From a virus: 34,924 nucleotides of DNA. Positions 6,078-25,573 of this stretch are shown here, one piece after another (the stretch's first letter is position 1; the number at the start of each line of letters is the position of its first letter). Position numbers and translations under genes: made by a program. The notes beneath the pieces were generated by a model. That model had not been told where the DNA came from, made no database searches, and worked only from the letters and a program-made list of their open reading frames with translations. The stretch lies in IMG/VR virus record IMGVR_UViG_3300042691_031810, positions 1 to 34,924 of that record; one strand, written 5' to 3'.

Positions 6078-6089
6078 ATTACAAAAACT

Positions 6090-7916
6090 ATGAAGATACT
6101 AGTAACACAATTCTATACAAATAATCTTTTGTACGGAAAATACACAGAAGAAGTTAACAGAAAATATTGTGAAAAACATGGATATGAATATTTTGTTGAA
6201 AAAGATTCTGATAAAATAAATCTTTTTTGTCAAGAGCAAGGAATAGCAAGACAATGGTATAAAGTAAAACTTATACAAAACATCTTGAATGAAAGTACAA
6301 AAACATTTTTTGGATTAGGAGCAGGAAAACCTAAATATGATTGGATTCTATTTTTAGATGCTGACGCAATGATTTCAAATCACGATAAACGAATAGAAGA
6401 TTATATAGATGATACTAAAAATTTAATTGTGGCAACTGAAACTGGGCATCATAGTGTAACAAATACAGGAGTGTTACTTGTAAAAAATGATGATTGGTCT
6501 AAACAATTTTTTAGTGAGTGGTGGGATAGTAAAAATTGGATTACAGGAAAACATGCCACAGAGTTGTTAGATTGGGCAGGAGGTGGTGATTCGGCTGATA
6601 ATGCAGGTGTATTCAAAAGTGGATTGTGGCATGAACAAACTTGTCTTTCTGTATTGTATACTCAAAACAAAGAATTAAAAAATAGATTAAAGTTTGTAAA
6701 CGCCGAAGAGTTTAATTCTGTTGTCTTCAAGCAAGATGCTTTTATATTCCACGCGTATGGATATGGACACAATAGATACAGAGATATTGATTCCATCTAT
6801 GAAGCAAAGATAGCCATCAAGGAGGAAACGAACAAGATAGTTATTGTTTACTTTGTTTATTGTGTAAATAATTATTTAGAAATTGCCAAGAAAGATTTTG
6901 ATAGAATGGTTAATAGTGGGTTGTATGGTGCGTGCGATACTATGTATGTTGTATGCTCAATACCTAATGTAAGTGAAACAGATGATAATACTAAAATATA
7001 TCAAGAAATATCTAAAATATATGATGGTAACGAGAAAGTAAAAATAGAAAAACGATATGGTAACAGATTTGAACACTATGGAATAGTTAGGGCGTGGATA
7101 GAATCACACAAATCAGATGGATATCTTTTATATTGTCACGCAAAAGGAGTTGCAAATGTTCCAACTGATAGTACCCCTCATTCAGAATGGAAGAAATTGG
7201 GTGATGCATCATTTATTGAAATGCTACAATACTTTATTATAGATAACTATAAAGCTTGTATTGATAAATTACAGCATTACGACCAAGTAAATGTATCTGA
7301 TAGTTATAGTAGAGGATGGCCATCAGGAAATTTTTGGTGGTGTAGAATGGATTATCTAAGAAAAATAAACTTTCCATTTGAAAGTACCTATGATAGATGG
7401 GCATCTGAAGCATGGATTAACTTTAGAAGTAAAAAATACTCAACTTTTCAATTGTATGATAGATTCTATTTCAGAGATAAATTTACCTTTATACCGGAGG
7501 ATTCATACAAAAACATAGAATCAATGAAGGATAAGAAAATAGATTTACTATACGCAAAATACATGGTATTATTAGAACCTGAAAATGAAAATGACCGAAA
7601 TCGTCCTACTGAGACATATGAAGTGGATTGTACAGATTTTATTAGGAAAAATTTGAATGATAATGACCAAAAGGGGTTTAATGGAATAATAGTTTCACAT
7701 ACAGGTACACTTGGCCCAAATGTAATAAAAGATCCTTTGTATGGTGTAAAAAAAGTGTTGGTTACGGAATTCAAAGTGATAGGAGATGATACTATTTATA
7801 GAATAACAACAGATGAAGGGGATTTGTTGGAGTATAGAATAGATACATATAAATCAATAGGATATGATTTTGAATACCCTGATAAAAAAGTAAGAGAAAT
7901 ACTAAAAAATGAATAA
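6090..7916 (+). CDS. Two-domain glycosyltransferase (GT34-like N-terminus, second GT-like domain)
   Basis: 608 residues. The N-terminal 235 residues resemble the galactosyl transferase GMA12/MNN10 group: MKILVTQFYTNN, an ARQWYKVKLIQNIL helix, then WILFLDADAMISN with a DAD motif at 90-92 and a TNTGVLLVKN strand. A second domain (about 245-500) begins KIVIVYFVYCVNNY and contains YCHAKGV (HAKG at 350-353), SGNFWWCRMDYL and RWASEAWINF; this set recurs in viral and bacterial sugar-transfer proteins. About 100 C-terminal residues (508-608) form a separate, beta-rich segment of unknown role. It lies 12 bases downstream of the previous GT gene and overlaps the next by eight bases. Probably a bifunctional enzyme adding two sugars in sequence (inference). 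Confidence 0.68.
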   Translation: MKILVTQFYTNNLLYGKYTEEVNRKYCEKHGYEYFVEKDSDKINLFCQEQGIARQWYKVKLIQNILNESTKTFFGLGAGKPKYDWILFLDADAMISNHDKRIEDYIDDTKNLIVATETGHHSVTNTGVLLVKNDDWSKQFFSEWWDSKNWITGKHATELLDWAGGGDSADNAGVFKSGLWHEQTCLSVLYTQNKELKNRLKFVNAEEFNSVVFKQDAFIFHAYGYGHNRYRDIDSIYEAKIAIKEETNKIVIVYFVYCVNNYLEIAKKDFDRMVNSGLYGACDTMYVVCSIPNVSETDDNTKIYQEISKIYDGNEKVKIEKRYGNRFEHYGIVRAWIESHKSDGYLLYCHAKGVANVPTDSTPHSEWKKLGDASFIEMLQYFIIDNYKACIDKLQHYDQVNVSDSYSRGWPSGNFWWCRMDYLRKINFPFESTYDRWASEAWINFRSKKYSTFQLYDRFYFRDKFTFIPEDSYKNIESMKDKKIDLLYAKYMVLLEPENENDRNRPTETYEVDCTDFIRKNLNDNDQKGFNGIIVSHTGTLGPNVIKDPLYGVKKVLVTEFKVIGDDTIYRITTDEGDLLEYRIDTYKSIGYDFEYPDKKVREILKNE

Positions 7917-8994
7917 TCAAGATTTGATAATTGTAACTTTTGGATTTGGCCCAACATATAGAGATAGGGTAAAGTATCAAATAAATGAAGCATCAACTAG
8001 ATTTGGATACGATAAAGTTATGAAGTATTTTATTTTAACCGATAGAGTTGAAGATTTTATTGGATTAGATAAAAATGTGCAGGATTTGATAGTTGATGTT
8101 GTTGATATTGAAGAATGTAGAAAAGATGATGAGTTCTCTAAATTGTATGAACCGCTACCTGAAGAAAAAATAGATGATGAATTATACGCTACACAACTTA
8201 GATATAATAGTGATGTCAAAAAATTATTATTTAGTTATGGGCTAAAACGATATGCTCTAAAAGCATTAGCTCAACGCGGTATAACTAAATTTCTATATAT
8301 GGATGCAGATATTAAATTACATTATGACCATATAGTTGAGGGTAAAAAAACAGAAGAAGAATTTTGGGGAGAATTTGATATCCCAGTTAATTGCATAAAA
8401 GGGTGTGGAACTGAGACATTAAAGTTTACTCAACTGGATAAAAATAACGATATGCAGTTCATCTATAGTAAAACTGCCGGCTCACATGATAGCGTGCGTG
8501 CATTGCAAGCTTCTTCAATAGTAATGTATAAGTATTTCGAAGAATTAGGACAATTAGAAAAATTTATAATACCATTAGAGCTCACAATTATAGAAGGGCC
8601 GGTGAGAATTTTTAACTTTGAAAGTGTGAGTAAATTAGAAAGTTATTTTAATACATTGAATTCCGTATCTCGCCTATTCTTACAAAATGGACAGTTATAC
8701 TCTACAAATTTATGTGGTGGTTATATTCTATGTGATTATTTACCTCTATCAGTAGCCAATTCTCTAGAAAATATACAAGTTCAACACTTACCTGGCCACT
8801 TATTTGAATACAGAAACTTTTTTGAAGATCGGTTTTGGGGAACACAATGGTATGAAAACCATGAGTGCGATAGTGAAACAACATATTTAATATCAACAAA
8901 AAGTAAAAAAGAATTTCTAAAAAAGAACGAGAAAATGATAGAATGTATGAAAAAAAGGAATCAATGGCCGTATGTTAGTTGGAGTTGTATTTAA
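7909..8994 (+). CDS. Putative glycosyltransferase with DAD motif
   Basis: 361 residues. The N-terminus DLIIVTFGFGPTYRDRV and the central KFLYMDADIKLHYD stretch (DAD at 132-134) have the layout of GT-A fold enzymes such as GT8 and relatives. Later stretches (SSIVMYKYFEELGQ, LCGGYILCDYLPLS, QHLPGHLFEYRNFF) look conserved but I cannot tie them to a named family. The start overlaps the upstream stop by ATGAATAA, identical to the 4803 junction. A sugar-transfer role rests on the DAD motif and on its place in the cassette; the substrate is unknown. Confidence 0.5.
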   Translation: MNNQDLIIVTFGFGPTYRDRVKYQINEASTRFGYDKVMKYFILTDRVEDFIGLDKNVQDLIVDVVDIEECRKDDEFSKLYEPLPEEKIDDELYATQLRYNSDVKKLLFSYGLKRYALKALAQRGITKFLYMDADIKLHYDHIVEGKKTEEEFWGEFDIPVNCIKGCGTETLKFTQLDKNNDMQFIYSKTAGSHDSVRALQASSIVMYKYFEELGQLEKFIIPLELTIIEGPVRIFNFESVSKLESYFNTLNSVSRLFLQNGQLYSTNLCGGYILCDYLPLSVANSLENIQVQHLPGHLFEYRNFFEDRFWGTQWYENHECDSETTYLISTKSKKEFLKKNEKMIECMKKRNQWPYVSWSCI

Positions 8995-9012
8995 TAAATT
9001 AAAAAAGAACAC

Positions 9013-11379
9013 ATGAATACATTATTTGAATTAGTAAACAAATATGGGAGTGATAAAAATTTAAGTCAGTACACTAAGACATACGAAAAATTATTTACCC
9101 CAATTAAAGAAAAAGTTTTAAGCCTATTAGAAGTTGGAGTAGGGACCTTAGACCCTTCAGTACCAAGTACTTTTGCTGGAAATGTAGGTCACTATAAACA
9201 TTACACACCAGGAGGTTCTTTACGAGTGTGGAGAGATTTTTTTCCACACGCTAAAATATATGGAGTTGATATAGCAAAAGATTGTTTGATTAAAGAAGAA
9301 AGAATAAAAACATTTTTGTTCGATTCCAGCAACCATGAGTTATGTGCTAATCACTTAACAAATTTAGAATTTGATATTATTATAGATGATGGATGCCATG
9401 ACCCGGCTTATCAAATTAAAACTCTTAGAAATCTGTTTCCACTATTGAATCAAAATGGATACTATATTATTGAAGATATAGGTGGATATGCTCCATCAGA
9501 TGGAACAGAGAAAAAAGAGTTGTTGATACATTATTTGCAAGAATTTAATGAATTAACTCAAGGATGTGATGTAACAAATTGTGGTAATCACATAGTAATA
9601 AAGAAAACCAAAGAAGAAAAAAATACACCTATTGAAAATAATATCTATAGTGTAGATAGTATACCACCAAATTCATCAAAAAAAGATTTTACTCTAGTGA
9701 CTGGATTGTGGAATATCGGCAGAAACTCCAGAGATTTTGAAACACATTATTTACCTAATTTTGATGCATTTTTGAAAATAGATGCACCAATGGTAGTATT
9801 TGTTCCATCCGAATTGAAGAAGTTTGTAGAACAAAGAAGATCCACAGAAAACACTCACATAATTTGCTTTGAGTTAGATGATGTGAAAAGATTGTATTCA
9901 CCATTTTGGAATAAAACGCAAGAAATAAGGACTAATCCAAATTGGTACAATCTAACAGGGGAACATGGGTGGTTAAAGGGAAGTCCACAGGCCTCATTAG
10001 AATGGTACAATCCAATTGTACAATCTAAAATGTTTCTTCTACATGATGCAGTAGTATATAATCCATTTGATACGGATTATTTCTTTTGGTTAGATGCTGG
10101 TATAACAAATACAATTCCTCAAGATCATTTGGTGTATAAAAAAGCTTTAGATAACATAACTAGTGTTTCAAACCCCTTTCTATTTATAAGTTATCCATAT
10201 GAATCATCTGGTGAAATTCATGGATTCAAATTTGATAAAATGAATGAATTGGCTAGAGAAAAAGTAACCTATGTTTGTAGAGGTGGTCTTTTTGGTGGGC
10301 ATAAGTATCAAATAAGAGAAGCTAATGCTACATATTATAGTCTATTAATGAAAACACTTAGTAATGGACTTATGGGTACGGAAGAAAGTATTTTTACAAT
10401 TATGTCATACACCGAACCACATTTATATAGACGGTATATGATTGATGGTAATGGGTTGATATCTAAATTTACTCAGGCATTAATTGATAATAATGTTGTG
10501 TTGGAAGAAATTTCTGAGAAACAATTAAAACGAACACTCAAAGTAACTGATAATGATATTGAAAAAGTTAAAACGAATCTCTATATATTGACATTTAATT
10601 TTCCTGAACAACTTTCTCATACTATTGAATCAATGAAAAAAGTATCAGAGTGGTTAAACAAACCTAAGTTAGTTTTATTGGATAATTCAACTGATGAGAT
10701 AGCAAAAGAACAAAACAAAAAGATAGCAGATGAATATAACTTTGAATACATTCATTTGGGTAAAAACACAGGTATATGTGGAGGTAGACAATATGCGGCT
10801 GAACACTTCCATGAATCGGATGCGGATTTTATGTTCTTTTTTGAAGATGACATGACATCAAACCCACCAGAACGAGATGGAGAGTTTTGTAGAAATGGAT
10901 TTAGAAAATTCATTCCAAACCTGTATAATATAGTACATAAGATAATGATAAAAGAGGAGTTTGATTTTCTAAAACTATCATATACAGAAGTTTTTATGGA
11001 TAATAACATACAAGTATCATGGTATAATGTACCACAAGATATCAGAACTAGAGATTGGCCAAGTTATGACAAGTTACCATTCACAGGATTAGATCCAAAT
11101 GCACCAAGAACACAATTTAATACGATTGAAGTTTTAGATGGTGTAAGTTATGTTACAGGTGATATTTACTATGCAAACTGGCCTATGATTGTAAGTAAAA
11201 ACGGAAACAAAAAGATGTTTATTGATACTAAATGGGCGCATCCATATGAGCAAACATGGATGAGTTATATGTATCAGGAAACAAAAAAAGGAAACCTCAG
11301 GCCTGCATTATTACTTGCTAGCCCAATAAATCACGATAGAATAGCCCACTACAAGCCCGAAGAAAGAAGAGAAAACTAA
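9013..11379 (+). CDS. Trifunctional fusion: SAM methyltransferase, HtrL/YibB-type GT, GT2-like domain
   Basis: 788 residues with three domains. Residues 1-200: class I methyltransferase of the sugar O-methyltransferase / CmcI-like type, with YGSDKN near the start, SAM loop LLEVGVGT (38-45), IYGVDIAKD and FDIIIDDGCHDP, then GYYIIEDIGG. Residues about 222-500: HtrL/YibB (WlaTC) family, with TLVTGLWNIGR, a long acidic loop, FFWLDAGI (D361) and a GGLFGGHKYQI stretch. Residues about 521-788: GT2-like, with NLYILTFNFPEQLSHTI, LGKNTGICGGRQYA and the metal motif EDDM (611-614). The likely job is building and O-methylating a short glycan. Last gene of the sugar cassette; 23 bases separate it from the next gene, including a TATTTATA motif. 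Domain boundaries are approximate. Confidence 0.72.
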   Translation: MNTLFELVNKYGSDKNLSQYTKTYEKLFTPIKEKVLSLLEVGVGTLDPSVPSTFAGNVGHYKHYTPGGSLRVWRDFFPHAKIYGVDIAKDCLIKEERIKTFLFDSSNHELCANHLTNLEFDIIIDDGCHDPAYQIKTLRNLFPLLNQNGYYIIEDIGGYAPSDGTEKKELLIHYLQEFNELTQGCDVTNCGNHIVIKKTKEEKNTPIENNIYSVDSIPPNSSKKDFTLVTGLWNIGRNSRDFETHYLPNFDAFLKIDAPMVVFVPSELKKFVEQRRSTENTHIICFELDDVKRLYSPFWNKTQEIRTNPNWYNLTGEHGWLKGSPQASLEWYNPIVQSKMFLLHDAVVYNPFDTDYFFWLDAGITNTIPQDHLVYKKALDNITSVSNPFLFISYPYESSGEIHGFKFDKMNELAREKVTYVCRGGLFGGHKYQIREANATYYSLLMKTLSNGLMGTEESIFTIMSYTEPHLYRRYMIDGNGLISKFTQALIDNNVVLEEISEKQLKRTLKVTDNDIEKVKTNLYILTFNFPEQLSHTIESMKKVSEWLNKPKLVLLDNSTDEIAKEQNKKIADEYNFEYIHLGKNTGICGGRQYAAEHFHESDADFMFFFEDDMTSNPPERDGEFCRNGFRKFIPNLYNIVHKIMIKEEFDFLKLSYTEVFMDNNIQVSWYNVPQDIRTRDWPSYDKLPFTGLDPNAPRTQFNTIEVLDGVSYVTGDIYYANWPMIVSKNGNKKMFIDTKWAHPYEQTWMSYMYQETKKGNLRPALLLASPINHDRIAHYKPEERREN

Positions 11380-11402: not shown

Positions 11403-13262
11403 ATGAACAATTTAGTACGCTATCTTGTAGAAAGTATCTTACTTGAAGAGGTAAAAGATGTGGTTGTGGTTTATGCAGGTAGGTTTCAACCATTTCACAA
11501 GGGTCATTATGCCACTTATCAACATTTGGTAAAGAAATTCGGAAAGGATAGTGTATATATTGGTACATCAAATACAACCGATGCCAAAAAATCACCATTT
11601 AATTTCAAAGAAAAGAAATTGATAATGACAAAGATGTTTGGAATCCCATCAAATCAAATAGTGATGGTAAAGAACCCCTACAGACCAATAGAAGTACTTA
11701 ATGGCATAAAGAAAGATACGGCATTCATAACGGTAGTAGGGGCAAAGGATAAAAACAGATTAGCAGGTGGTAAGTATTTTTCTCAATACAAAGGAGTAGC
11801 CGATAAAGGATACGAAGATGCCGGGTATTACTATATAGCACCACCCCAACCAAACGCAGTTAGTGGAACTGATGTCCGAAATTGGTTAAGTAACGGAACA
11901 ACTGATGAAAAGAAAAGTAATTTTATGAAGGCATATCCTAAATTTGATGCCTCTATTTTCAAACTAATAACCGATAAACTTGCAACCTTAAAAACTGAAA
12001 GTGTAAAAAGAAGAACTATAGATGATATACTTAATGAAGTTGTAAAGAATAAACGCATTATTTCAGAAGGTGGTGCGTACGGCCATATGGCGCATCCTTT
12101 TGATTTGGAGATGAACCTTACATTTGGTGATTTGAAAAATATAGTGAAGAAGGCACTCAATGGAGAATTAGAATTAGCGAGAGAGAAAACAGATGGTCAA
12201 GCATTGGCAGTTAGTTGGGTTAAAGGTAGATTAGTTGCTGCGCGAAACAAATCACATTTAAGGAATAAAGGTGAGGGTGCAATGGATATTACTCAAGTGG
12301 CAACTAAATTCGCAAATAGAGGTGGGTTAACTGATGCATACAACTTTGCAATGAAAGATTTAGAATCTGCTATCGGTGGATTATCGGATGCACAAAAGAA
12401 ACTCATCTTTAAGGATGGAGCGTGTTTTATGAATTTGGAAGTGATATACCCCGAATCAGTAAATGTTATTCCTTATGGTCAACCTCTATTAGTATTTCAT
12501 GGAACATTTGAATATGATATGGATGGTAATATAATAGGAGAGAATCAAAAATCAGCATCTATACTTGCAGGTATGATAAAACAGATTAATGCAGAAGTTC
12601 AATCTAAGTATACTATACAAGGCCCTCCTGTTCAAACTCTTCCAAAAAACCAAAACCTTATTAAGAAACAAACTAAGTATTTTGGTATGATATCCAAATT
12701 ACAAAAAGAATTTGGATTGACAGATTCATCTAATGTCGCAGATTATCATCAAGCATGGTGGGAAGATTTTGTAGAAAAAAATGCTAAAGGATTAGATACC
12801 CACTCAAAAATTGGATTAGTAAAGAGATGGGCGTTTGATGATAAGTCTTTCCGAATAGCAGGAATACAAGATAATAAGATACGAAAATGGGCAGAGGGAG
12901 TAGACAAAAAAGATAAAGATAAGATACGAAAGGATAACCTAATAAAGTTTGAAGAGATATTTTTAGGTGTAGGTGCAGATGTACTTCAGTTTATGAAATC
13001 AGTTTTAACCGTAGACCCTGATTCTGCGGCTAAATCTATGAAGAAAGAATTGGATACTGCGATAAAACAAATCCAAGCAAATGGGACACCTGAACAAATT
13101 AGGAAATTAGAAATTGAACTAAAGAGATTACACAAGTTAGGAGGGTTTAATAAAATTGTGCCAGCCGAGGGTATAGTTTTTGTTTACAATGGAAACACCT
13201 ACAAGTTGACTGGAGCATTTGCACCATTGAATCAAATATTGGGGGTATTCAAGTTTGGTTAA
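11403..13262 (+). CDS. HxGH nucleotidyltransferase fused to a polynucleotide-ligase-like domain
   Basis: 619 residues. After a leader-like N-terminus (MNNLVRYLVESILLEE), residues 20-195 form a cytidylyltransferase/NMN-adenylyltransferase fold: VVVYAGRFQPFHKGH with HKGH at 32-35, and a C-terminal SGTDVRNWL that resembles the ISxTxxR motif. From about residue 225 the protein carries the ordered motifs of covalent nucleotidyltransferases: motif I EKTDG (Lys262), a glutamate in FMNLEVIY (Glu346) as motif III, motif IV EGIVF (589-593) and motif V YKLTG (Lys601). I recall similar C-terminal domains in marine T4-like phages as DUF6267. Possible roles are nucleic-acid end repair or NAD/RNA metabolism; neither is proven. 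The leader suggests packaging into the capsid (inference). Confidence 0.65.
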   Translation: MNNLVRYLVESILLEEVKDVVVVYAGRFQPFHKGHYATYQHLVKKFGKDSVYIGTSNTTDAKKSPFNFKEKKLIMTKMFGIPSNQIVMVKNPYRPIEVLNGIKKDTAFITVVGAKDKNRLAGGKYFSQYKGVADKGYEDAGYYYIAPPQPNAVSGTDVRNWLSNGTTDEKKSNFMKAYPKFDASIFKLITDKLATLKTESVKRRTIDDILNEVVKNKRIISEGGAYGHMAHPFDLEMNLTFGDLKNIVKKALNGELELAREKTDGQALAVSWVKGRLVAARNKSHLRNKGEGAMDITQVATKFANRGGLTDAYNFAMKDLESAIGGLSDAQKKLIFKDGACFMNLEVIYPESVNVIPYGQPLLVFHGTFEYDMDGNIIGENQKSASILAGMIKQINAEVQSKYTIQGPPVQTLPKNQNLIKKQTKYFGMISKLQKEFGLTDSSNVADYHQAWWEDFVEKNAKGLDTHSKIGLVKRWAFDDKSFRIAGIQDNKIRKWAEGVDKKDKDKIRKDNLIKFEEIFLGVGADVLQFMKSVLTVDPDSAAKSMKKELDTAIKQIQANGTPEQIRKLEIELKRLHKLGGFNKIVPAEGIVFVYNGNTYKLTGAFAPLNQILGVFKFG

Positions 13263-15438: not shown

Positions 15439-17037
15439 ATGGAAACCCAAAATAAGACACTCAAAGATGTAATCAAAGATGAATACAAAAAGTGTGCGGT
15501 AGACCCGATACACTTTATGAAAAAATATTGTAAGATTCAACATCCTACCAAAGGTAAGATGCGATTTGAGTTATTTCCATTCCAAGAAAAGACATTAGAA
15601 GAATTTAATAAGAACCGATACAACATAGTTCTAAAATCTCGTCAGACAGGTATATCAACTCTTACTGCAGGGTTTGCGTTATGGCAGATGACATTTAATA
15701 GTGATTTCAATGTTCTTGTTATCGCAATCAAACAGGAAGTTGCAAAAAACTTGGTTACCAAAGTACGAGTTATGTATGATGGATTACCAAGTTGGTTGAA
15801 AGTAAACGAGGTGGAAGACAATAAACTCTCACTCCGATTAGCAAATGGTTCACAGATTAAAGCAATCGCGGCATCTCCCGATGCAGGTCGTTCTGAAGCA
15901 CTTTCACTTCTTGTGATTGATGAAGCTGCCTTCATTGATGATATTGATGAGATATGGACATCTGCAACTCCCGCTCTATCAACAGGTGGTAGTTGTATTG
16001 CACTTTCTACTCCTAATGGTGTAGGTAATTGGTTTCATAAACAATGGATGGGCGCAGAAGAAGGTGATAATGAATTCAAACCAATCAAACTACATTGGAC
16101 AGTTCACCCTGAGAGAAATCAAAAATGGAGAGATGAACAAACAATAGTATTGGGTGAGAAATTAGCAGCACAGGAATGTGATTGTGATTTCGTATCATCA
16201 GGTAATACCGTTATTGAAGCTCAGTATCTATTGTGGTATAAAGAAACATTTGTAAAAGACCCGATTGAAAAAACAGGGTTTGATGGAAATTATTGGAAGT
16301 GGGAGTACCCTGATTATGCAAAATCATACATGGTATCTGCCGATGTGGCTCGTGGAGATGGTGGAGATTATTCAGCATTTCATGTGTTTGATATTGTAAA
16401 CAATGTTCAGGTTGCAGAGTATAGAGGTAAAATGGATACCAAAGATTTCGGAAACTTCTTAGTAGGAGTTGCATCTGAATGGAATAATGCATTATTAGTA
16501 ATTGAAAACGCAAATGTGGGTTGGGCAGTTATTCAACAATGTATAGATAGAGGATATCCAAATCTCTATTACCAATCTCAAGATTACAAATATGTTGATA
16601 TAGAAAGACAATATAGTAATAAGTTGAGAGCAGAAGAGAAACGAGAGGTTGCAGGGTTTACAACATCGGTACGAACTCGTCCACTTATCATTTCAAAATT
16701 AGATGAGTATTTTAAGAATAAAGCTATGGTAATACAATCCATTCGGTTGATTGATGAATTGTTTACCTTTATTTGGAGTGGTAGTAGAGCTGAAGCGTTA
16801 AAGGGGTATAATGATGATTTGGTAATGTCATTCAGTATCGGATTATGGGTAAGGGATACTGCATTAAGGTTGAGACAGGAAAGAATGGATTTGGCAAAAC
16901 AATCTATGGATTCATTTGCAGTTACAGGATTTTCTATGGGAAATAGGAATACATATCTTAATTCAAAACTTAAACAAGACCCATATAAGGTACAAATGGG
17001 TAAGGATAGTGAGGATATTAAATGGTTATTAGGTTAA
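15439..17037 (+). CDS. terL: Large terminase subunit (T4 gp17-like)
   Basis: 532 residues; the motor and nuclease that packages DNA into proheads. ATPase domain: adenine-binding FPFQ (46-49), Walker A variant KSRQTGIST (66-74), Walker B LLVIDEAAF with Asp161 and catalytic Glu162, and coupling motif ALSTP. Nuclease domain: VSADVARGDGGDYSAF (Asp302), VIENANVG (Glu356) and YNDDLVMSF (Asp459/Asp460), the three acidic positions of the RNase H-like fold. T4 gp17 is 610 residues, so this one is somewhat shorter but complete. The gene starts one base after the methyltransferase stop. The next genes encode a capsid-associated protein and the portal instead of the sheath and tube found in T4. Confidence 0.95.
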   Translation: METQNKTLKDVIKDEYKKCAVDPIHFMKKYCKIQHPTKGKMRFELFPFQEKTLEEFNKNRYNIVLKSRQTGISTLTAGFALWQMTFNSDFNVLVIAIKQEVAKNLVTKVRVMYDGLPSWLKVNEVEDNKLSLRLANGSQIKAIAASPDAGRSEALSLLVIDEAAFIDDIDEIWTSATPALSTGGSCIALSTPNGVGNWFHKQWMGAEEGDNEFKPIKLHWTVHPERNQKWRDEQTIVLGEKLAAQECDCDFVSSGNTVIEAQYLLWYKETFVKDPIEKTGFDGNYWKWEYPDYAKSYMVSADVARGDGGDYSAFHVFDIVNNVQVAEYRGKMDTKDFGNFLVGVASEWNNALLVIENANVGWAVIQQCIDRGYPNLYYQSQDYKYVDIERQYSNKLRAEEKREVAGFTTSVRTRPLIISKLDEYFKNKAMVIQSIRLIDELFTFIWSGSRAEALKGYNDDLVMSFSIGLWVRDTALRLRQERMDLAKQSMDSFAVTGFSMGNRNTYLNSKLKQDPYKVQMGKDSEDIKWLLG

Positions 17038-17892: not shown

Positions 17893-19764
17893 ATGGCAGA
17901 AGAAGTAAAAACAAACGGGTTCTTTGAGAGATTAAGAAAATTATTCTCTACCAAAGTAATCATTGCTAGGGATGAAAATGGTAATAGAAAAGTAGTAGAC
18001 CATGAACAACAACAGCAACTTTCTAACCTCAAATCCTTAAAAGATAGATTTTATCGTCTTCAGACAGGGTACAAGTACGAAAACTTTACCACTCAATTAT
18101 CCTATTCAACAATTCGTAGAGAGTTATTTTTGGATTACGATGCGATGGATAACGATCCAATCATTGCCTCTGCCTTAGATATTTATGCAGATGAGTGTAC
18201 AACTAAAAATGAGTATGGTGATATCCTAACTATTCGTACACAAAATCAGGAAGTTAAAGAAGCATTACACAATCTATTTTATGACATTCTGAATGTGGAA
18301 TTTAATTTGTGGCCTTGGGCTCGTAACCTATGTAAATACGGAGACCTGTTCCTTGTTTTAGAAATTGTAGAAGGAGAAGGAGTAGTTGGAATACATCCTC
18401 AATCTGTTTACCATGTAACTAGAACTGAAGGCCCATACGACCCATCTCGTGTTAATAAAAAAGAACCTGGCATCAAATTTACAATTGATCCCGATTATTT
18501 GGGTAAACATGAATATGATAACTATGAAGTTGCTCACTTCCGTCTTTATTCCGATACCAACTATCTACCGTATGGTAAGGCAATGTTGGAGAACGCAAGA
18601 CGATTATGGAAACAAATAACTCTTATGGAAGATGCGATGATGATTCATCGTATTATGAGAGCACCTGAAAAGAGAATATTTAAGATTGATATTGGTAATA
18701 TTCCTCCGCAGGAAGTTGATAACTATATGCAGAGGATTATCAATAAAATTAAAAAGACTCCGTTCGTAGACCAAAATACAGGAGATTATAACCTCAAGTA
18801 TAACATGATGAACATTACTGAGGATTTCTTCATGCCAGTTCGTGGTGGTGATAGTGGAACTTCAATTGATACTTTAGCTGGATTGCAATACGCTGCAATT
18901 GAAGATTTGGATTACTTGAAAGCAAAGATGTTTGCTGCTCTAAAAATACCAAAAGCATTCTTGGGATACGAGGAAGATATTAATGGCAAAGCAACATTGG
19001 CAGCCGAAGATATTCGTTTTGCTAGAACCGTACAAAGAATCCAACGAGTAATGATATCTGAACTTTCACAGATTGCAATGGTACATTTACTTGCAAACGG
19101 ATTCAAGGGTATGGATGTAGTTGATTTTGAATTAGAACTAACTAACCCATCAACTATATATGAACAGGAAAAGGTAAACCTATGGTCTCAAAAGGTTACA
19201 CTTGCAAAGGATATAAAAGATTTGAAACTTCTATCATCTGATTTCATTTATAATGAGATATTCCAATTATCTCAAGAGCAAATTGATAAACACCGTCAGG
19301 ATGTTGTACTTGATACATTTGATACCAACCGATTAACAAAGATAGAGAATGAAGGTGTAGACCCTTATGAAGAATCAAATCCTCAACCTGAAGAAGGTGG
19401 TGCACCTGCTGAAGGAGAAGCAGCACCTGAGGGAGAACCCGAAATGGAAGAATCAGTTGATGGAAGGATAGAAACATCTGCTGAAAATGGTGAATTAGGT
19501 GGAAGACCTAAGACAGCGGGTAATAGAGGTAGTGATGAAAACGCATTTGGAAGAGACCCATTAGGAAAAGCAGATGTAACCAGAAACTTCGGAAGAGAAA
19601 CTCGTAACGCTAGATTAGCTACAAGGTTAAAGGATATATCAAGCAAAGAAAAAGCCCTCCGTGATAATCTCAGGAAACGGATAAGAAAAGAGAGACTTTT
19701 TGAATCCCAAAATACGGATACAGGTTCGTTATTGGATGATAAGAACATATTACCTGACGAATAG
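17893..19764 (+). CDS. gp20: Portal vertex protein (T4 gp20-like)
   Basis: 623 residues; forms the dodecameric ring at the head vertex through which DNA passes and which nucleates prohead assembly. Recognisable gp20 stretches: LDYDAMDNDPIIASALDIYADE, IMRAPEKRIFKIDIGNIPP, MNITEDFFMPVRGGDSGT followed by IDTLAGLQ, and FAALKIPKAFLGYEED. T4 gp20 is 524 residues; the extra length is mainly a C-terminal tail (about 490-623) that is Glu/Pro/Ala-rich and then strongly basic (KALRDNLRKRIRKERLFES), with low complexity. The basic tail could touch DNA or scaffold (inference). The start follows the upstream stop with no gap. Confidence 0.93.
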   Translation: MAEEVKTNGFFERLRKLFSTKVIIARDENGNRKVVDHEQQQQLSNLKSLKDRFYRLQTGYKYENFTTQLSYSTIRRELFLDYDAMDNDPIIASALDIYADECTTKNEYGDILTIRTQNQEVKEALHNLFYDILNVEFNLWPWARNLCKYGDLFLVLEIVEGEGVVGIHPQSVYHVTRTEGPYDPSRVNKKEPGIKFTIDPDYLGKHEYDNYEVAHFRLYSDTNYLPYGKAMLENARRLWKQITLMEDAMMIHRIMRAPEKRIFKIDIGNIPPQEVDNYMQRIINKIKKTPFVDQNTGDYNLKYNMMNITEDFFMPVRGGDSGTSIDTLAGLQYAAIEDLDYLKAKMFAALKIPKAFLGYEEDINGKATLAAEDIRFARTVQRIQRVMISELSQIAMVHLLANGFKGMDVVDFELELTNPSTIYEQEKVNLWSQKVTLAKDIKDLKLLSSDFIYNEIFQLSQEQIDKHRQDVVLDTFDTNRLTKIENEGVDPYEESNPQPEEGGAPAEGEAAPEGEPEMEESVDGRIETSAENGELGGRPKTAGNRGSDENAFGRDPLGKADVTRNFGRETRNARLATRLKDISSKEKALRDNLRKRIRKERLFESQNTDTGSLLDDKNILPDE

Positions 19765-19784: not shown

Positions 19785-19794
19785 TATATTTATA
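19785..19794 (+). promoter_or_regulatory. Putative late promoter TATATTTATA before the 19839 gene
   Basis: Exact copy of the ten-base motif, 44 bases before the ATG at 19839, inside the 74-base gap after the portal gene. No -35-like element is evident. Confidence 0.55.
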
Positions 19795-19838: not shown

Positions 19839-20717
19839 ATGAAAGTTAAACATAGTAAGTTTAGAAATACGGCCATACTATTTGAATTGTTGGTCAAACA
19901 GATAACACATGAGGTGTTATCTAATTCCTCTAAACCTATTTCCGAGCAAATAATCAAAGAGTTTTTTAACTCCAAAAGAGAACTATCTAAGGAGTTGAAG
20001 TTGTACAATCAAATAGTAAAAGAAAAATACTCTAAGGTTGATGATGCTAAGTTGTTTCTTGAAGAAGTAATTTCTGAAAGAAAGAAGTTAGATGAAAACA
20101 AACTCAATAGAGAAAAGTACAATCTTATCAAAACTATAAAGGAATCTTATGATTTGCAGAAATTTCTATCATCAAATCTACAAAACTACCGAATTCTTGC
20201 ATCAATATATAAAGTTTTTGAAGCAAAGACCAAAGGTAGAACTGGTGAAATTCGTGAGTACATAGATGCTAACAATTTGGTACTTGAGCATATAACGGTA
20301 AAGCGTAGTTCAACTCCTAAAAAAGATGCTATCTACGAAGTATTCAAAACTCAATCTGAAGATATTCGCTTGTTAACATACAAATTGATGTTAGAAAACT
20401 TTAACAAGAAATACTCTACTCTAAATGATGAGCAGAAAAACTTGTTAAGGGAGTTTATCTATAATGTATCAAATACATCAACTTTCCCAGCTTATGTTAA
20501 AGAACAGGTAAAGAAAGTTCTTATAGAACTTGTAACCATATCTAAGATAGTAGATGATAAAGTTACCAAAATAAAAATTGCAGAGGTAGTGAAGTTGTTG
20601 AAGACAGGTAATATCTTAAAAGAAAATCAGGAAAAACAAGTTTCATTACTTATGTTATCTTACGAACTATTAAAAGAAATCAATCATGTCAAGTCCAATA
20701 GAAAGATTAAGAAGTAA
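19839..20717 (+). CDS. Conserved-looking helical protein between portal and protease, unknown function
   Basis: 292 residues, nearly all alpha-helical by composition, rich in Lys, Glu, Leu and Ile. It begins MKVKHSKFRNTAILFELLVKQIT, a start I recall from proteins of marine T4-like phages in the same place, but no function is known to me. Location between gp20 and gp21 is where T4 has its small prohead core genes 67 and 68, so a core or assembly role is reasonable (inference from position). It has its own upstream TATATTTATA motif and its last 32 bases overlap the next gene. Confidence 0.65.
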   Translation: MKVKHSKFRNTAILFELLVKQITHEVLSNSSKPISEQIIKEFFNSKRELSKELKLYNQIVKEKYSKVDDAKLFLEEVISERKKLDENKLNREKYNLIKTIKESYDLQKFLSSNLQNYRILASIYKVFEAKTKGRTGEIREYIDANNLVLEHITVKRSSTPKKDAIYEVFKTQSEDIRLLTYKLMLENFNKKYSTLNDEQKNLLREFIYNVSNTSTFPAYVKEQVKKVLIELVTISKIVDDKVTKIKIAEVVKLLKTGNILKENQEKQVSLLMLSYELLKEINHVKSNRKIKK

Positions 20718-21135
20718 GATTAGTGAAATTGTTAAAGAAGAGTTAACTCCTAAAAAGAAACTAAAGAAGGAGGCATCCGTAACTGCTAATGTGGCAGGTT
20801 ATGATACCCCTCGCGCATTTAATCCCGATGGTTCTCATACCAAAGGATATGTAAAAAGAATGGCAGGTGTTGCTGGATATTCTTCGGTAAACGAAAACAG
20901 ATTCCATCAATTGCGAAAGAATGAGAATACACCAAATCAAAAAATTGGTATTGGTATTCGTGAGATGAGAAAACAAATCACCGAGATAGAGAAATTTTTG
21001 GAATGGTATGGTAGAATTAAGAATGAAAATGGAATGAAGGGTGATGATTTTTGGAAAAGAACAAACAAGCATATTTATAAGATAAAAGAGAGGTTACAAG
21101 GTATAAGAGAAAAGATTAACAAACTATATAAGTAA
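20686..21135 (+). CDS. Small prohead-region protein with leader-like N-terminus
   Basis: 149 residues, not recognised. It opens with the amphipathic stretch IERLRSKISEIVKEEL, one of several similar leaders in this window, followed by a Gly/Asn/Pro-rich segment (AGYDTPRAFNPDG) and a helical C-terminus (IREMRKQITEIEKFLEWYGR). The start lies 32 bases inside the previous gene in another frame; the leader similarity supports this start over the later Met in VKRMAGVAGY. Possibly an internal head protein cleaved after IVKE (inference). Confidence 0.65.
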   Translation: MSSPIERLRSKISEIVKEELTPKKKLKKEASVTANVAGYDTPRAFNPDGSHTKGYVKRMAGVAGYSSVNENRFHQLRKNENTPNQKIGIGIREMRKQITEIEKFLEWYGRIKNENGMKGDDFWKRTNKHIYKIKERLQGIREKINKLYK

Positions 21136-21141
21136 ACTAAT

Positions 21142-21573
21142 ATGAAAATCACCCGCGAACAACTCCAATCTATTGTGAAAGAGGTAATGCAAGAAGAAAG
21201 CGATTACCAAGATTATTTCAAGGCAATGCTTTCTAAGCATGGTGTAAAATCTCCTGCCGAATTCAAATCTGATGAAGAGCGTAAAGATTTCTTTAATAAG
21301 GTAGAAGCTGGTTGGGATGGTGTGAACGAAAGAATTAAAGAAATTCGCACAGAACAAGCTAAAAGAGTTGAGGCTTTAAAATTAAAAGAAGCAGAAGAGG
21401 CAGAGAGATTACAAAAAGAAGCCGAAGAAAAAGCTCAACAACTAAAAGAGTTGAATGATAAAATTGATAATGCTATTGAAACATTAGAAGCACTTCGCCC
21501 AGCAGTACAGGAGGAAGTTCCTCCTATGCAACAATCAGAAGTTCCATTTCAGGAATACAAAAAGAAAAAGTAA
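21142..21573 (+). CDS. Small coiled-coil protein with leader-like N-terminus upstream of the protease
   Basis: 143 residues. The leader MKITREQLQSIVKEVMQEE parallels those at 20686 and 22193. The middle (DEERKDFFNKVEAGWDGV) may be a small helical domain; residues about 75-125 are an Ala/Glu/Lys-rich coiled coil; the end is basic (EYKKKK). Charge pattern and place suggest a prohead core or internal protein, similar in style to T4 gp67/gp68, without detectable sequence identity by eye. It starts six bases after the upstream stop and ends 18 bases before the protease gene. Confidence 0.62.
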   Translation: MKITREQLQSIVKEVMQEESDYQDYFKAMLSKHGVKSPAEFKSDEERKDFFNKVEAGWDGVNERIKEIRTEQAKRVEALKLKEAEEAERLQKEAEEKAQQLKELNDKIDNAIETLEALRPAVQEEVPPMQQSEVPFQEYKKKK

Positions 21574-21591
21574 TTTCTGATTCCAATTCTT

Positions 21592-22191
21592 ATGAAAACA
21601 CTTTTAGTAGAAACAAGACTTTTTGAGGGTAAATTACAAGAGAACGAAAATGGTGTTGTTCTTGTCAAAGGTGTACTACAAAGAGCAGATGCACAAAACC
21701 AAAATGGTAGAGTGTATCCTAAAGAGATTCTTGCAAGAGAAGTAAAAAAATACCAACAACTCATTAAGGAAAAAAGAGCGTTAGGTGAATTAGACCACCC
21801 TGATAGTTCTGTAATCAATCTTAAAAATGTTTCTCATAATATAAGAGAGTGTCATTGGGAAGGTGATGATGTGGTAGGTGTTGTAGAGATATTACCTACA
21901 CCATCTGGTAACATCTTGAAAGAATTATTGAAGTGTGGAATTCTATTGGGTATATCTTCTCGTGGTATGGGTTCAGTAGAAAACATCGGAGAAGGAAAAG
22001 TACAAGTAGGCGAAGATTTTGAATTGTTAGGTTGGGATTTTGTATCTAACCCTTCAACTCAAGGTGCATTTATGGAAACTCTTAATGAATCCGTAAGGAA
22101 AGATGTTCGCAAACAAATCGGAACAGATGTATGTGGTGAGTGGTGCAAAACACAACACCTTATCAGAGAAATTATAAGTGAATTAAACTAG
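21592..22191 (+). CDS. gp21: Prohead core protease (T4 gp21-like)
   Basis: 199 residues; serine protease that matures the prohead by cutting after (L/I)-x-E. Catalytic signatures: RALGELDHPDSS with His69 and LGISSRGMGSV with the active Ser at 122/123; the GWDFVSNPSTQGAF segment follows, as in gp21. T4 gp21 is 212 residues, so this is full length. The C-terminus HLIREIISELN looks like the leader motif of its neighbours, as expected if the protease is tethered and released by its own cleavage (inference). It is placed between core-like proteins and the scaffold, as in T4. Confidence 0.92.
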   Translation: MKTLLVETRLFEGKLQENENGVVLVKGVLQRADAQNQNGRVYPKEILAREVKKYQQLIKEKRALGELDHPDSSVINLKNVSHNIRECHWEGDDVVGVVEILPTPSGNILKELLKCGILLGISSRGMGSVENIGEGKVQVGEDFELLGWDFVSNPSTQGAFMETLNESVRKDVRKQIGTDVCGEWCKTQHLIREIISELN

Positions 22192-22192
22192 C

Positions 22193-22366
22193 ATGAAACT
22201 AACTCAATTACAATTGAGAACTCTTATCAGAGAAGAAATAAAGAAATTACGCGAGAATCTAATGGTAGCATGTCGTAATTGTGGGTGGAAGTGGAAATTT
22301 AAAGAAGGTGGAAACGACCCCTATATATGTCATCATTGTGGAGGGCATGGTGTACTCATAAAATAA
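22193..22366 (+). CDS. 57-residue zinc-ribbon microprotein with capsid-leader-like N-terminus
   Basis: Short frame with ATG at 22193 and TAA at 22364-22366, one base after the protease stop. The first 21 residues (MKLTQLQLRTLIREEIKKLR) are an amphipathic helix like the leaders at 20686 and 21142. The rest is a compact treble: ACRNCGWKWKF, then YICHHCGGHG, giving C-x2-C (residues 27 and 30) and C-x2-C (46 and 49), a zinc-ribbon pattern. I recall very similar small Cys domains in other marine phages. It could bind zinc and nucleic acid or protein inside the head; function is unknown. Confidence 0.75.
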   Translation: MKLTQLQLRTLIREEIKKLRENLMVACRNCGWKWKFKEGGNDPYICHHCGGHGVLIK

Positions 22367-22387
22367 TCAAACTAAACCAAACAAGTT

Positions 22388-22585
22388 ATGTTAATAGTGA
22401 AAGTAAACGGGAATATAGAAAAGGCATTGAAAACTTTGAAAAACAAAGTTATCAAAACACAACAAGTACAAGAGTTACAACGCAGAACTGAATATGTAAA
22501 ACCATCGGTAAAGCGTAGAACTGAAATCAAAGATGCAATCTACCGACAGAAAAAGAGGTCTGAAGCAGAAAAAGATTTCAACTAA
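22388..22585 (+). CDS. rpsU: Phage-encoded ribosomal protein bS21
   Basis: 65 residues. The sequence follows Bacteroidota-type bS21: MLIVKVNGNIEKALKTLKNK at the start, VQELQRRTEYVKPSV in the middle (usual form ELRxRxxFxKPSV) and KRRTEIKDAIYRQKKR at the end. Cellular bS21 binds the 30S platform near the 3' end of 16S rRNA. In Flavobacterium, bS21 with bS18 and bS6 holds the anti-Shine-Dalgarno tail, with Tyr54 as contact; Tyr52 here aligns with that residue after a two-residue deletion near the N-terminus. S21 genes are known from some other phages, such as pelagiphage and large phages. It sits after the zinc-ribbon gene and is followed directly by a terminator, so it is made with the core genes, not as an isolated insertion. 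Confidence 0.88.
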   Translation: MLIVKVNGNIEKALKTLKNKVIKTQQVQELQRRTEYVKPSVKRRTEIKDAIYRQKKRSEAEKDFN

Positions 22586-22588
22586 TTC

Positions 22589-22616
22589 AAAAGGAGAGAA
22601 TAAAAACTCTCCTTTT
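22589..22616 (+). terminator. Rho-independent terminator after bS21
   Basis: Stem AAAAGGAGAG (22589-22598) pairs with CTCTCCTTTT (22607-22616) around the eight-base loop AATAAAAA, followed by further T residues to 22619. It separates the portal-protease-bS21 unit from the scaffold-capsid unit and lies 23 bases before the next promoter motif. Confidence 0.88.
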
Positions 22617-22639: not shown

Positions 22640-22649
22640 TATATTTATA
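22640..22649 (+). promoter_or_regulatory. Putative late promoter TATATTTATA for scaffold and capsid genes
   Basis: Exact motif followed by CTTAA, 104 bases before the scaffold ATG and immediately after a strong terminator. This is the clearest case for the motif acting as a forward promoter, since transcription of the capsid genes must restart here. Confidence 0.65.
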
Positions 22650-22753: not shown

Positions 22754-23935
22754 ATGACAAGCAAACTATTAAAAGAAGCAATTGCTGATGCAAAGGCCGT
22801 TAGAGAAACCGCTCTTGCAAATGCAAAAATCGCTCTTGAAGAGGCTTTCACTCCTAAACTTCAATCTATGCTTTCTAGAAAACTAAAAGAAGAATTAGAA
22901 GGCGATGAATTAGAAGAAGAGGAAGAAGTTTCTGTAAAAGAGAACGCAGTATCTTCTGATATCGGTAAGGGTGATAACAAACAACCTGCCGCTAAAGCTT
23001 TCGATTCTGCAGCCGATTCTGATGAGCTAGGAAAAGCAGGTGTTAAAAAACAAACCGCTGCTTCTGGTGAAGAAGATGAAAATTTAGAGGTAGTAGCAGA
23101 AGGTGAAGAACTTGAAGAAGATGATGTTACTGGTGCAACCCCTGACTCTGGAATTAATGAAGAGGAAGAGGAAGTAAAAGAAGGTGAAGAACTTGCTAAA
23201 GAAGGCGAGGAAGAAGTAGCCAACGAAGGTGATGATCACGATATCGAATTGAGTGAAATCATTGCTGAATTGGAAGACGAACTTGCTAAAGAAGGTGAGG
23301 AAGAAGTAGCCAAAGAAGGTGAAGAGCACACTTATGAAGGTGAAGAACCTACTTATGAGGGTGAAGAAGTAGCCAAAGAAGGTGAAGAACTTGCTAAAGA
23401 AGGTGATGAACTTGATTTAGATGAAATCCTAAGAGAAATGGGATACGGTGACGCACCTGCAGCTGAAGTTGAAGAAGGTGAGGAGTTAGAAATCGACCTT
23501 GCAAAAGAAGGTGAAGATGCTACTGCTGATGTTGACGCACTTCAGAAAGAAGTTGAGGAAAAAGAAGAGGAATTAAAAGAAGCATACAAAGTTATCAAGT
23601 CTCTAAAAGGTACAATCAATGAGGTTAACCTTTTGAACGCGAAACTTCTTTATGTTAACAAACTATTCCGTTCTTATAACTTAACCAACGAACAGAAGTC
23701 TAAAATCGTTGAGACTTTAGACAGAACAAAGAATGTAAGAGAAGTTAAATTGGTTTACTCTACCATCGCCGAATCTTTCAGAGCAGGTGCTGGTGTATCA
23801 AGAAAACCTGTTACTAAACTTACCGAAAGTTATGCATCAAAACCAGCTAAATCTACTGCCCCTGCTAAGAAAGTAATTTCTGAAAGCGCAAACATGGCAA
23901 ACAGATTCAAAAAACTTGCTGGTATCAACAAATAA
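22754..23935 (+). CDS. gp22: Prohead scaffold (core) protein, T4 gp22-like, with acidic repeats
   Basis: 393 residues; forms the internal core on which the capsid shell assembles and is degraded by gp21. The N-terminal 65 residues are helical (AIADAKAVRETALANAKIAL). Residues about 55-260 are extremely Glu-rich with repeated [LV]AKEGEE units; one repeat of more than 30 bases recurs 90 bases apart (near 23191 and 23281). The C-terminal part has the stretch recognisable in marine T4-like scaffolds, INEVNLLNAKLLYVNKLFR, followed by LDRTKNVREVKLVYSTI and NRFKKLAGINK. T4 gp22 is 269 residues; the acidic repeats account for the extra length. Directly upstream of gp23 as in T4. Confidence 0.85.
   Translation: MTSKLLKEAIADAKAVRETALANAKIALEEAFTPKLQSMLSRKLKEELEGDELEEEEEVSVKENAVSSDIGKGDNKQPAAKAFDSAADSDELGKAGVKKQTAASGEEDENLEVVAEGEELEEDDVTGATPDSGINEEEEEVKEGEELAKEGEEEVANEGDDHDIELSEIIAELEDELAKEGEEEVAKEGEEHTYEGEEPTYEGEEVAKEGEELAKEGDELDLDEILREMGYGDAPAAEVEEGEELEIDLAKEGEDATADVDALQKEVEEKEEELKEAYKVIKSLKGTINEVNLLNAKLLYVNKLFRSYNLTNEQKSKIVETLDRTKNVREVKLVYSTIAESFRAGAGVSRKPVTKLTESYASKPAKSTAPAKKVISESANMANRFKKLAGINK
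23187..23415 (+). repeat. Acidic AKEGEE repeats in the scaffold gene
   Basis: Several copies of a unit encoding [LV]AKEGEE, interspersed with TYEGEE variants. The stretch ACTTGCTAAAGAAGG.GAGG continuing into GAAGTAGCC occurs at about 23191 and again at 23281. Degenerate tandem expansion in a charged, probably unstructured region. Confidence 0.8.
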
Positions 23936-23953: not shown

Positions 23954-25573
23954 ATGGCAAATTTCAATGTAAAATCATTGCTTGAGGCAAAAAATCCTCA
24001 ATCCATTATGTTGGAGCAAACTCGTGGACTTAAGAAGAAGTGGGATAAAACCGGCTTACTTGAAGGTCTAAGAGAAAGAGAACAACATTCAATGGCGGTT
24101 CTTTTAGAGAACCAAGCTCAGCAACTTCTTGCTGAAGCATCTCAGACCAACGCAAACGGTCAGGGTTCTGAAGAATGGTCTGGTGTAGCACTTCCACTTG
24201 TAAGAAGAATCTTCGGTGAAATCGCTGCTAAAGAGTTCGTTAGCGTACAGCCTATGAACTTACCTTCAGGTCTTATTTTCTTCATGGACTTTAAGTATGG
24301 TAACACTAAAGGTGATAAGACAGCTCTTAGCTCACTTTATGGTGGTACTGGTGCTAAGTTCGGTAGAACTGATGCAGTTTCTGGTGGTCTTTATGGTAAT
24401 GGTACTTATGGATACTCACTACCTTCTCAGTCTATCGTTACTAACATTCAGCCTACTAGCGTTACTTCTGCTTCTTGGGCAGATGCTGGTTTCCGTCCTG
24501 AGTATTCTGCATCTATCGCAGGTGCAAACTCTCAGTTGAGAAAAGTTGTAGTTCCAGCTGCTATGATTACTGGTTCAGATATTGAAGCAGTTAAATCATT
24601 CATCGTAAACTGCACTGGATTCGTTCAAAACTTGAATGAATTTGCAACTCATGATTATGCAGGTAGTAACTTTACTTTCATTGTATCTTCATCTGCTGCG
24701 TTTACTCAACTATCATCTGTAAGATATAGTGTACAACCTTCTGCATTTACAAGAGGTGATTTTGAAGACCAGAATCCTATCGTTGATGGTGGTGCTGGTG
24801 CATCTACAGGAACTAACTTGAATATTCCTGAAATTGACCTTGAGTTGAAGAGTGAATCCATCGTTGCCAAGACTCGTAAGTTAAAGGCAGTGTGGACTCC
24901 TGAATTAGCGCAAGACTTGAACGCATATCACTCAATTGATGCTGAAGCTGAATTAACTTCAATGTTAAGTGAGTATATCTCATTGGAAATTGACCTTGAG
25001 ATTCTTGATATGTTACAAGTTAACGCTCTAACTACGGATTACTGGTCTGCAACCGTAGGTGAAGAATACAACCCTAGCACAGGTGCATGGGCTGGTGGTT
25101 CTTCATCATTGGCTTACCAGAAGGCAACTTGGTTCCAGACTCTTGGTGTGAAAATTAACAAAGTTTCCAACAAGATTCACCAGTTGACCATGAGAGGAGG
25201 TGCAAACTTTATCGTAGCTTCTCCTGATGTGTGTACGATTCTTGAGTCTATCCCTGGCTTCCATGTGAATGCTGAGAAGGATGCACTTCAGTTCGCAGCA
25301 GGTGTATCAGTAGTAGGTAGTATTTCTAACCGCTACACAGTTTATAAGAACCCTTACATGACCCACAATCAAATCTTGTTGGGTTACAAAGGTGCTAACT
25401 TCTTAGAGACTGGTGCAGTTTATGCTCCTTATGTACCTCTAATTATGACACCTCTTGTCTATGACCCTGATAACTTCACTCCTAGACGCGGTGTTATGAC
25501 TCGTTACGCTAAGAAGATGGTAAGACCTGAATTCTATGGTCGCATCTTCGTTAAGGATTTGAACTTAATCTAA
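23954..25573 (+). CDS. gp23: Major capsid protein (T4 gp23-like)
   Basis: 539 residues (T4 gp23 is 521). Clear gp23 landmarks: FVSVQPMNLPSGLIFFMDFKYG, SIVAKTRKLKAVWTPELAQDLNAYH with the D-A-E-A-EL-S stretch after it, FIVASPDVCTILES, ILLGYKGANFLETGAVYAPYVPL and FTPRRGVMTRYAKK. The N-terminal 61 residues are a propeptide; LLAE ending at Glu61 followed by Ala62 fits the gp21 rule and mirrors the FLTE-A cleavage in T4. Codon use looks more optimised than in the neighbouring genes (more ctt, gct, ggt, cgt and ttc), as expected for the most abundant virion protein. Followed by a strong terminator. Confidence 0.96.
   Translation: MANFNVKSLLEAKNPQSIMLEQTRGLKKKWDKTGLLEGLREREQHSMAVLLENQAQQLLAEASQTNANGQGSEEWSGVALPLVRRIFGEIAAKEFVSVQPMNLPSGLIFFMDFKYGNTKGDKTALSSLYGGTGAKFGRTDAVSGGLYGNGTYGYSLPSQSIVTNIQPTSVTSASWADAGFRPEYSASIAGANSQLRKVVVPAAMITGSDIEAVKSFIVNCTGFVQNLNEFATHDYAGSNFTFIVSSSAAFTQLSSVRYSVQPSAFTRGDFEDQNPIVDGGAGASTGTNLNIPEIDLELKSESIVAKTRKLKAVWTPELAQDLNAYHSIDAEAELTSMLSEYISLEIDLEILDMLQVNALTTDYWSATVGEEYNPSTGAWAGGSSSLAYQKATWFQTLGVKINKVSNKIHQLTMRGGANFIVASPDVCTILESIPGFHVNAEKDALQFAAGVSVVGSISNRYTVYKNPYMTHNQILLGYKGANFLETGAVYAPYVPLIMTPLVYDPDNFTPRRGVMTRYAKKMVRPEFYGRIFVKDLNLI

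Follow-up and report, generated by a model that had tools for sequence, protein, structure and literature searches.

A phage bS21 gene at the end of a prohead gene unit as a probable host-matched substitute keeping ribosomes bS21-replete

A 34,924-nt stretch of viral DNA (IMG/VR record IMGVR_UViG_3300042691_031810, positions 1 to 34,924; hereafter the window) carries, at the end of a unit of prohead genes, a gene for ribosomal protein bS21. On balance we favour the view that its product acts as a late, host-matched substitute that would keep the ribosomes of the infected cell bS21-replete, rather than retuning them towards leaders without a Shine–Dalgarno (SD) sequence. The host of the phage is probably a member of the Bacteroidota. 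Phage bS21 genes beside capsid genes have already been published; new here are the counts of residue 54 against SD use, the finding of SD-less sister phages that do not have the tyrosine, and the contrast between the leaders of host rpsU and of phage bS21. These comparisons make the purpose for which phages carry bS21 accessible to simple tests.

The first-pass annotation had read the 65-residue product (MLIVKVNGNIEKALKTLKNKVIKTQQVQELQRRTEYVKPSVKRRTEIKDAIYRQKKRSEAEKDFN) of the plus-strand ORF 22388–22585 as bS21 and had called for a profile search. When run, this search gave matches above cut-off to both PF01165 (residues 4–54, E 4.2e-13, scoring 49.2 bits where the cut-off is 27) and TIGR00030 (residues 4–57, 39.4 bits against 28.95), and PHROG 21469 ('ribosomal protein S21') was matched as well. 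The best solved relative was bS21 of the Flavobacterium johnsoniae ribosome (7JIL chain z, E 5.9e-9), a member of the same family with 42% identity over the aligned part. Stops interrupt the reverse strand across the ORF. The closest relative, from locus L002, is 91% identical with a dN of 0.063 and a dS of 0.756 (dN/dS ~0.08), indicating that the gene is maintained under purifying selection. Judged by these profile and alignment matches, the ORF is a genuine bS21 gene.

The gene closes a unit spanning 19839–22585 in a T4-like head region, and the prohead core and major capsid genes belong to the next unit, past a terminator-like hairpin (-12.8 kcal/mol, z -4.7; Table 1). This placement, as described in the first-pass annotation, was borne out by PHROG matches for the portal, protease and major head protein and by the hairpin itself. 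The prohead core gene gave no family match and is named from its position. The motif TATATTTATA occurs seven times on the plus strand between 199 and 32318 (at 19785, 22640, 25636, 26042, 28517, 29616 and 31413), and all seven sites are intergenic, with 4.1% of the bases being intergenic (p ~2e-10). Similar ATATTTATA sites are intergenic in sister and marine relatives. We infer that TATATTTATA is a candidate late promoter. The late expression proposed earlier for bS21 is plausible from the location, from this candidate motif and from metatranscriptomes of related phages, in which bS21 is transcribed late with the capsid genes (Chen et al. 2022, PMC9723584); the timing in the window phage is predicted from these. 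Searches of the window for tRNAs and Rfam families found nothing. The 57-aa protein encoded between the protease and bS21 carries two CxxC pairs, resembles neighbouring prohead-region products in its N-terminal stretch (MKLTQLQLRTLIREEIKKL), and is possibly an internal head protein. Its gene was found at this place only in the window and L002 and is absent there in the sisters, and we rejected it as a general partner of bS21.

Table 1. Features of the head region of the window and of its bS21 gene
Feature	Position	Strand	Evidence or remark
Large terminase subunit	15439..17037	+	homologue of the terminase annotated in immuto and Mel-JY01
Portal protein	17893..19764	+	phrog_213 1e-64
TATATTTATA, candidate late promoter for the bS21-ending unit	19785..19794	+	
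First gene of the bS21-ending unit, 292 aa, no assigned function	19839..20717	+	kept in relatives
149-aa head-region protein	20686..21135	+	conserved
143-aa head-region protein	21142..21573	+	conserved, weak scaffold-like match
Prohead (head maturation) protease	21592..22191	+	phrog_207 1e-52
Zinc-ribbon-like 57-aa protein, between protease and bS21	22193..22366	+	CxxC..CxxC, weak zinc-ribbon matches
bS21 spacer/leader, 21 nt, no SD	22367..22387	+	ASD duplex +0.7 kcal/mol
bS21 (rpsU-like) gene, 65 aa, ATG start	22388..22585	+	PF01165, TIGR00030, 7JIL bS21, dN/dS
Tyr52 codon, equivalent to F. johnsoniae bS21 Tyr54	22541..22543	+	alignments
Intrinsic terminator-like hairpin with T-run, closing the bS21 unit	22589..22616	+	present in L002 too
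TATATTTATA, candidate late promoter for the prohead core–MCP unit	22640..22649	+	
Probable prohead core/scaffold gene (next unit)	22754..23935	+	position, conservation between bS21 and MCP
Major capsid protein (MCP)	23954..25573	+	phrog_138 5e-72; a further terminator-like site comes after it

Chen et al. (2022, PMC9723584) described bS21 in the head region of Bacteroidetes phages, with an aromatic residue 54 and late expression, and hypothesized that it replaces host bS21. The window resembles their jumbo-phage clades a–e in having bS21 beside the terminase, portal, protease and MCP genes, an aromatic residue 54, SD-less genes and a phage-type N-terminal helix: Asn19, Val21, Ile22 and Gln26 stand opposite Arg21, Phe23, Asp24 and Thr28 of F. 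johnsoniae, at the divergence sites of that study (which prints Asp25; the Asp is residue 24 in F. johnsoniae-type sequences). However, bS21 of clades a–e lies antisense between the portal and protease genes, whereas that of the window is in sense orientation between the protease and prohead core genes. Antisense placement was also found for almost all loci with recognizable head genes among the 80 viral loci closest by bS21, from which the window and L002 differ. The two genes flanking the antisense bS21 gene in L005, taken as a stand-in for Chen-type phages, have no homologue in the window or its sisters, and the portal proteins of the two groups lie far apart on the tree. By gene order and portal phylogeny, the window is a lineage separate from the phages of Chen et al. 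At the antisense loci (L005, L053, L010 and others), a promoter-like TATATTTG/ATATTTnTAA box ends ~6 nt before the ATG, often with GTCAAAA ~30 nt upstream (within 60 nt before bS21), which suggests that their 5' leader is very short or absent.

The sense placement is conserved among the loci found via the protease of the window, directly after the protease in the freshwater sisters (L083–L099) and, in marine loci, a few kb further on, immediately ahead of the core gene. The bS21 proteins of SD-using marine relatives (L103, L106, L113 and others) are extended at the C terminus by a long basic stretch, to ~100 residues. Microcystis phage Mel-JY01 (RpsU, PP395634) likewise has bS21 in sense orientation between the protease and prohead core genes of a related T4-like head module, but it has a cyanobacterial host, uses SDs and carries Lys in place of the Tyr. 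Phages with bS21 in this conserved late head module have different kinds of host, as judged by SD use and one cyanophage isolate. The capsid protein of Flavobacterium phage immuto is 50.6% identical to the MCP of the window; no bS21 was detected in the interval of immuto equivalent to that of the window, and its gp069, considered as a hidden bS21, was rejected because it had no Pfam match. In the tree of host and phage copies called for beforehand, the hosts formed one group (support 93, not starred) and most phage copies another. A topology test over 64 columns rejected neither a grouping of the window bS21 with its syntenic sisters (p-AU 0.608) nor one with the hosts (p-AU 0.464), so that the 65-residue tree leaves both in-place descent and replacement as its origin.

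We examined Tyr52, which the first-pass annotation had equated with Tyr54 of the Flavobacterium protein. The two residues do stand opposite each other in alignments including 7JIL chain z, giving the window protein the aromatic residue 54 of the Bacteroidia type; the function of Tyr54 in F. johnsoniae bS21 has been published (McNutt et al. 2023, PMC9976891). Residue 54 was then surveyed in 143 distinct viral bS21 sequences. Loci with at least five genes were scored for SD use, a locus being classed as SD-rich when at least 30% of its genes had a duplex with the anti-SD (ASD) of -5 kcal/mol or below. None of the 64 loci with Tyr or His at this position was SD-rich, compared with 44 of the 68 with Arg, Lys, Met or Asn. 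A portal tree of 40 representatives contained just two changes of SD use and four of aromatic state; with so few independent changes and clustered sampling, no significance can be claimed for the association, and we gave up a statistical argument linking residue 54 to SD use because independent-pair tests had no power despite these counts. On the simplest reading, each phage bS21 is suited to the ribosomes of the host, reflecting host matching and not causation. In this sense, phage copies agree with the way in which translation of the phage's own genes starts.

The nearest same-locus relatives of the window, L083–L099, are SD-less yet have Arg, Lys or His at the Tyr position. Together with immuto, in which no bS21 was detected, they indicate that neither the tyrosine nor bS21 is required for SD-less phages; the tyrosine therefore loses the key role first given to it, and we rejected it as sole proof of a function in SD-less translation. 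The accompanying proposal, that the phage copy makes ribosomes favour SD-less leaders, likewise found no support in that form, since Bacteroidia ribosomes already ignore SDs via the equivalent tyrosine of their own bS21. A Tyr-bearing phage copy thus preserves the existing mode.

The leader analysis took genes from a simple longest-ATG caller and paired their leaders with one fixed ASD tail, ACCTCCTTTCT, which was read from three Flavobacteriaceae genomes. About one of the 28 window genes had an ASD duplex at or below -5 kcal/mol, whereas a mock control region lying further upstream gave 25%, in agreement with the earlier remark that the genes around bS21 mostly lack SDs. F. johnsoniae rpsU is autoregulated via an exceptionally strong SD that is read best by ribosomes lacking bS21 (McNutt et al. 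2023, PMC9976891). An SD of the strength seen in autoregulated Bacteroidota rpsU (below -13 kcal/mol) is not present before the window bS21 gene. Among the Flavobacteriaceae hosts fetched, 34 of 35 rpsU leaders reached -13 kcal/mol or below, whereas none of the leaders of 75 distinct aromatic phage bS21 genes did, and 73 of these were weaker than -8 kcal/mol. Phage copies thus differ from Flavobacteriaceae rpsU exactly in the element that drives host autoregulation, and the aromatic copies should escape it because 73 of the 75 have no such SD. This contrast counts only if the host is a flavobacterium, because a strong SD is mostly missing from rpsU of Prolixibacteraceae (two of 24 at -8 kcal/mol or below) and Saprospiraceae (none of four). 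The two remaining aromatic phage copies have a moderate SD (-12.1 kcal/mol in L251 and -11.2 kcal/mol in L276); in L251 (LR756501, 10001–10201), a 735-kb phage and the largest phage record, the SD is aaaggagg. The sole host exception, L223, is an extra paralogue that lacks an SD and carries His at position 54. It belongs to Muricauda sp. CP2A (L223, L408, L409 and L410), whose genome has three bS21 genes, one canonical and two divergent with phage-like KKS motifs. Autoregulation and a promoter are not mentioned in the main text of Chen et al. (2022, PMC9723584), nor are phage leaders in that of McNutt et al. (2023, PMC9976891), although the latter discusses phages; other literature may cover them.

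We propose that bS21 shares a late transcript with the prohead genes, on a unit extending approximately between the 19785 motif and the terminator ending at 22616, and that the phage protein would enter ribosomes instead of, or besides, host bS21. Its host-type C-terminal helix, including Tyr52, would leave the 16S 3' tail sequestered so that SD-less initiation continues, and with its own leader lacking an SD its synthesis would be independent of SD-reading ribosomes depleted of bS21. In a flavobacterial host, phage bS21 filling vacant sites may hold off host rpsU and lead to a gradual phage takeover. Such an escape from the feedback, if real, would give a virus a definite molecular means of changing the ribosome make-up of its host. 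The likely benefit would be bS21-replete, competent ribosomes during the burst of capsid-protein synthesis, and the phage-type N-terminal helix might also confer a preference for phage mRNA. Since Bacteroidia ribosomes already work SD-less, there is no need to push them towards such leaders. A precedent for incorporation comes from another phage with a host of a different phylum: bS21 of Pelagibacter phage HTVC008M was shown to enter E. coli 70S ribosomes, which became nearly inactive (Mizuno et al. 2019, PMC6375957), a result that fits a need for host matching. The pelagiphage Mosig, a relative of HTVC008M, uses SDs, has Asn at the Tyr position and carries bS21 outside the head region. We counted the conserved place of the gene in SD-less freshwater relatives, SD-using marine relatives and Mel-JY01 for our proposal, and the rpsU genes of Prolixibacteraceae and Saprospiraceae that are not SD-led, together with the two SD-bearing aromatic phage copies, against it.

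Several other readings were weighed against the host-matched substitute. The strongest, which we nevertheless hold to be improbable, is that the phage copy simply offsets a late loss or shortage of host bS21, a matter of gene dosage with selectivity unchanged. The host-matched C-terminal type and the SD-less leader fit this, as does the strong requirement of SD-less mRNAs for bS21 in F. johnsoniae (McNutt et al. 2023, PMC9976891), but this does not account for the N-terminal helix being changed consistently to the phage type; the reading also overlaps with the mechanism that we favour and is inseparable from it by sequence. Those same changes (Asn19, Val21, Ile22 and Gln26) and the separation of most phage copies from the Bacteroidota host group speak for a specialized ribosome, in which an altered N-terminal helix would cause phage mRNAs to be preferred over those of the host. 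This published hypothesis, close to the first-pass annotation, seems to us unlikely: the leaders of the window and of Flavobacteriaceae hosts are alike SD-less and A-rich, and no obvious feature that could discriminate between them was found. Equally unlikely, in our estimate, is a takeover switch that breaks the host feedback, in which SD-less phage bS21 would fill vacant 30S subunits, silence SD-driven host rpsU and leave ribosomes irreversibly phage-marked late in infection; the Tyr-less versions of the sisters could then leave the 16S tail partly free.

A role outside the ribosome, with bS21 packaged with the DNA or aiding head assembly, has in its favour the prohead-unit position in many relatives and the idea of virion delivery raised by Chen et al. 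(2022, PMC9723584). We consider it very improbable given the full bS21 family match, the host-type residues and the purifying selection; unlike the neighbouring products, the protein also showed, by eye, no basic/acidic N-terminal stretch of the prohead type. That the gene is a non-functional hitchhiker captured from a host, as its shortness and its optional presence in related phages (none detected in immuto) might hint, is scarcely credible in view of the low dN/dS against L002 and a place conserved over deep phage divergence.

Upstream of the head region, the window contains a run of glycosyltransferase-type genes at 3554–11379 (GlcNAc transferase PF11397, Glyco_transf_34, and HtrL_YibB with GT2), followed by a protein (11403–13262) that begins with an NMN adenylyltransferase-like domain. 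The large protein encoded at 199–3489 has a glycine-rich domain and many SITPSNSITPS-type repeats, and is possibly a tail or surface adhesin.
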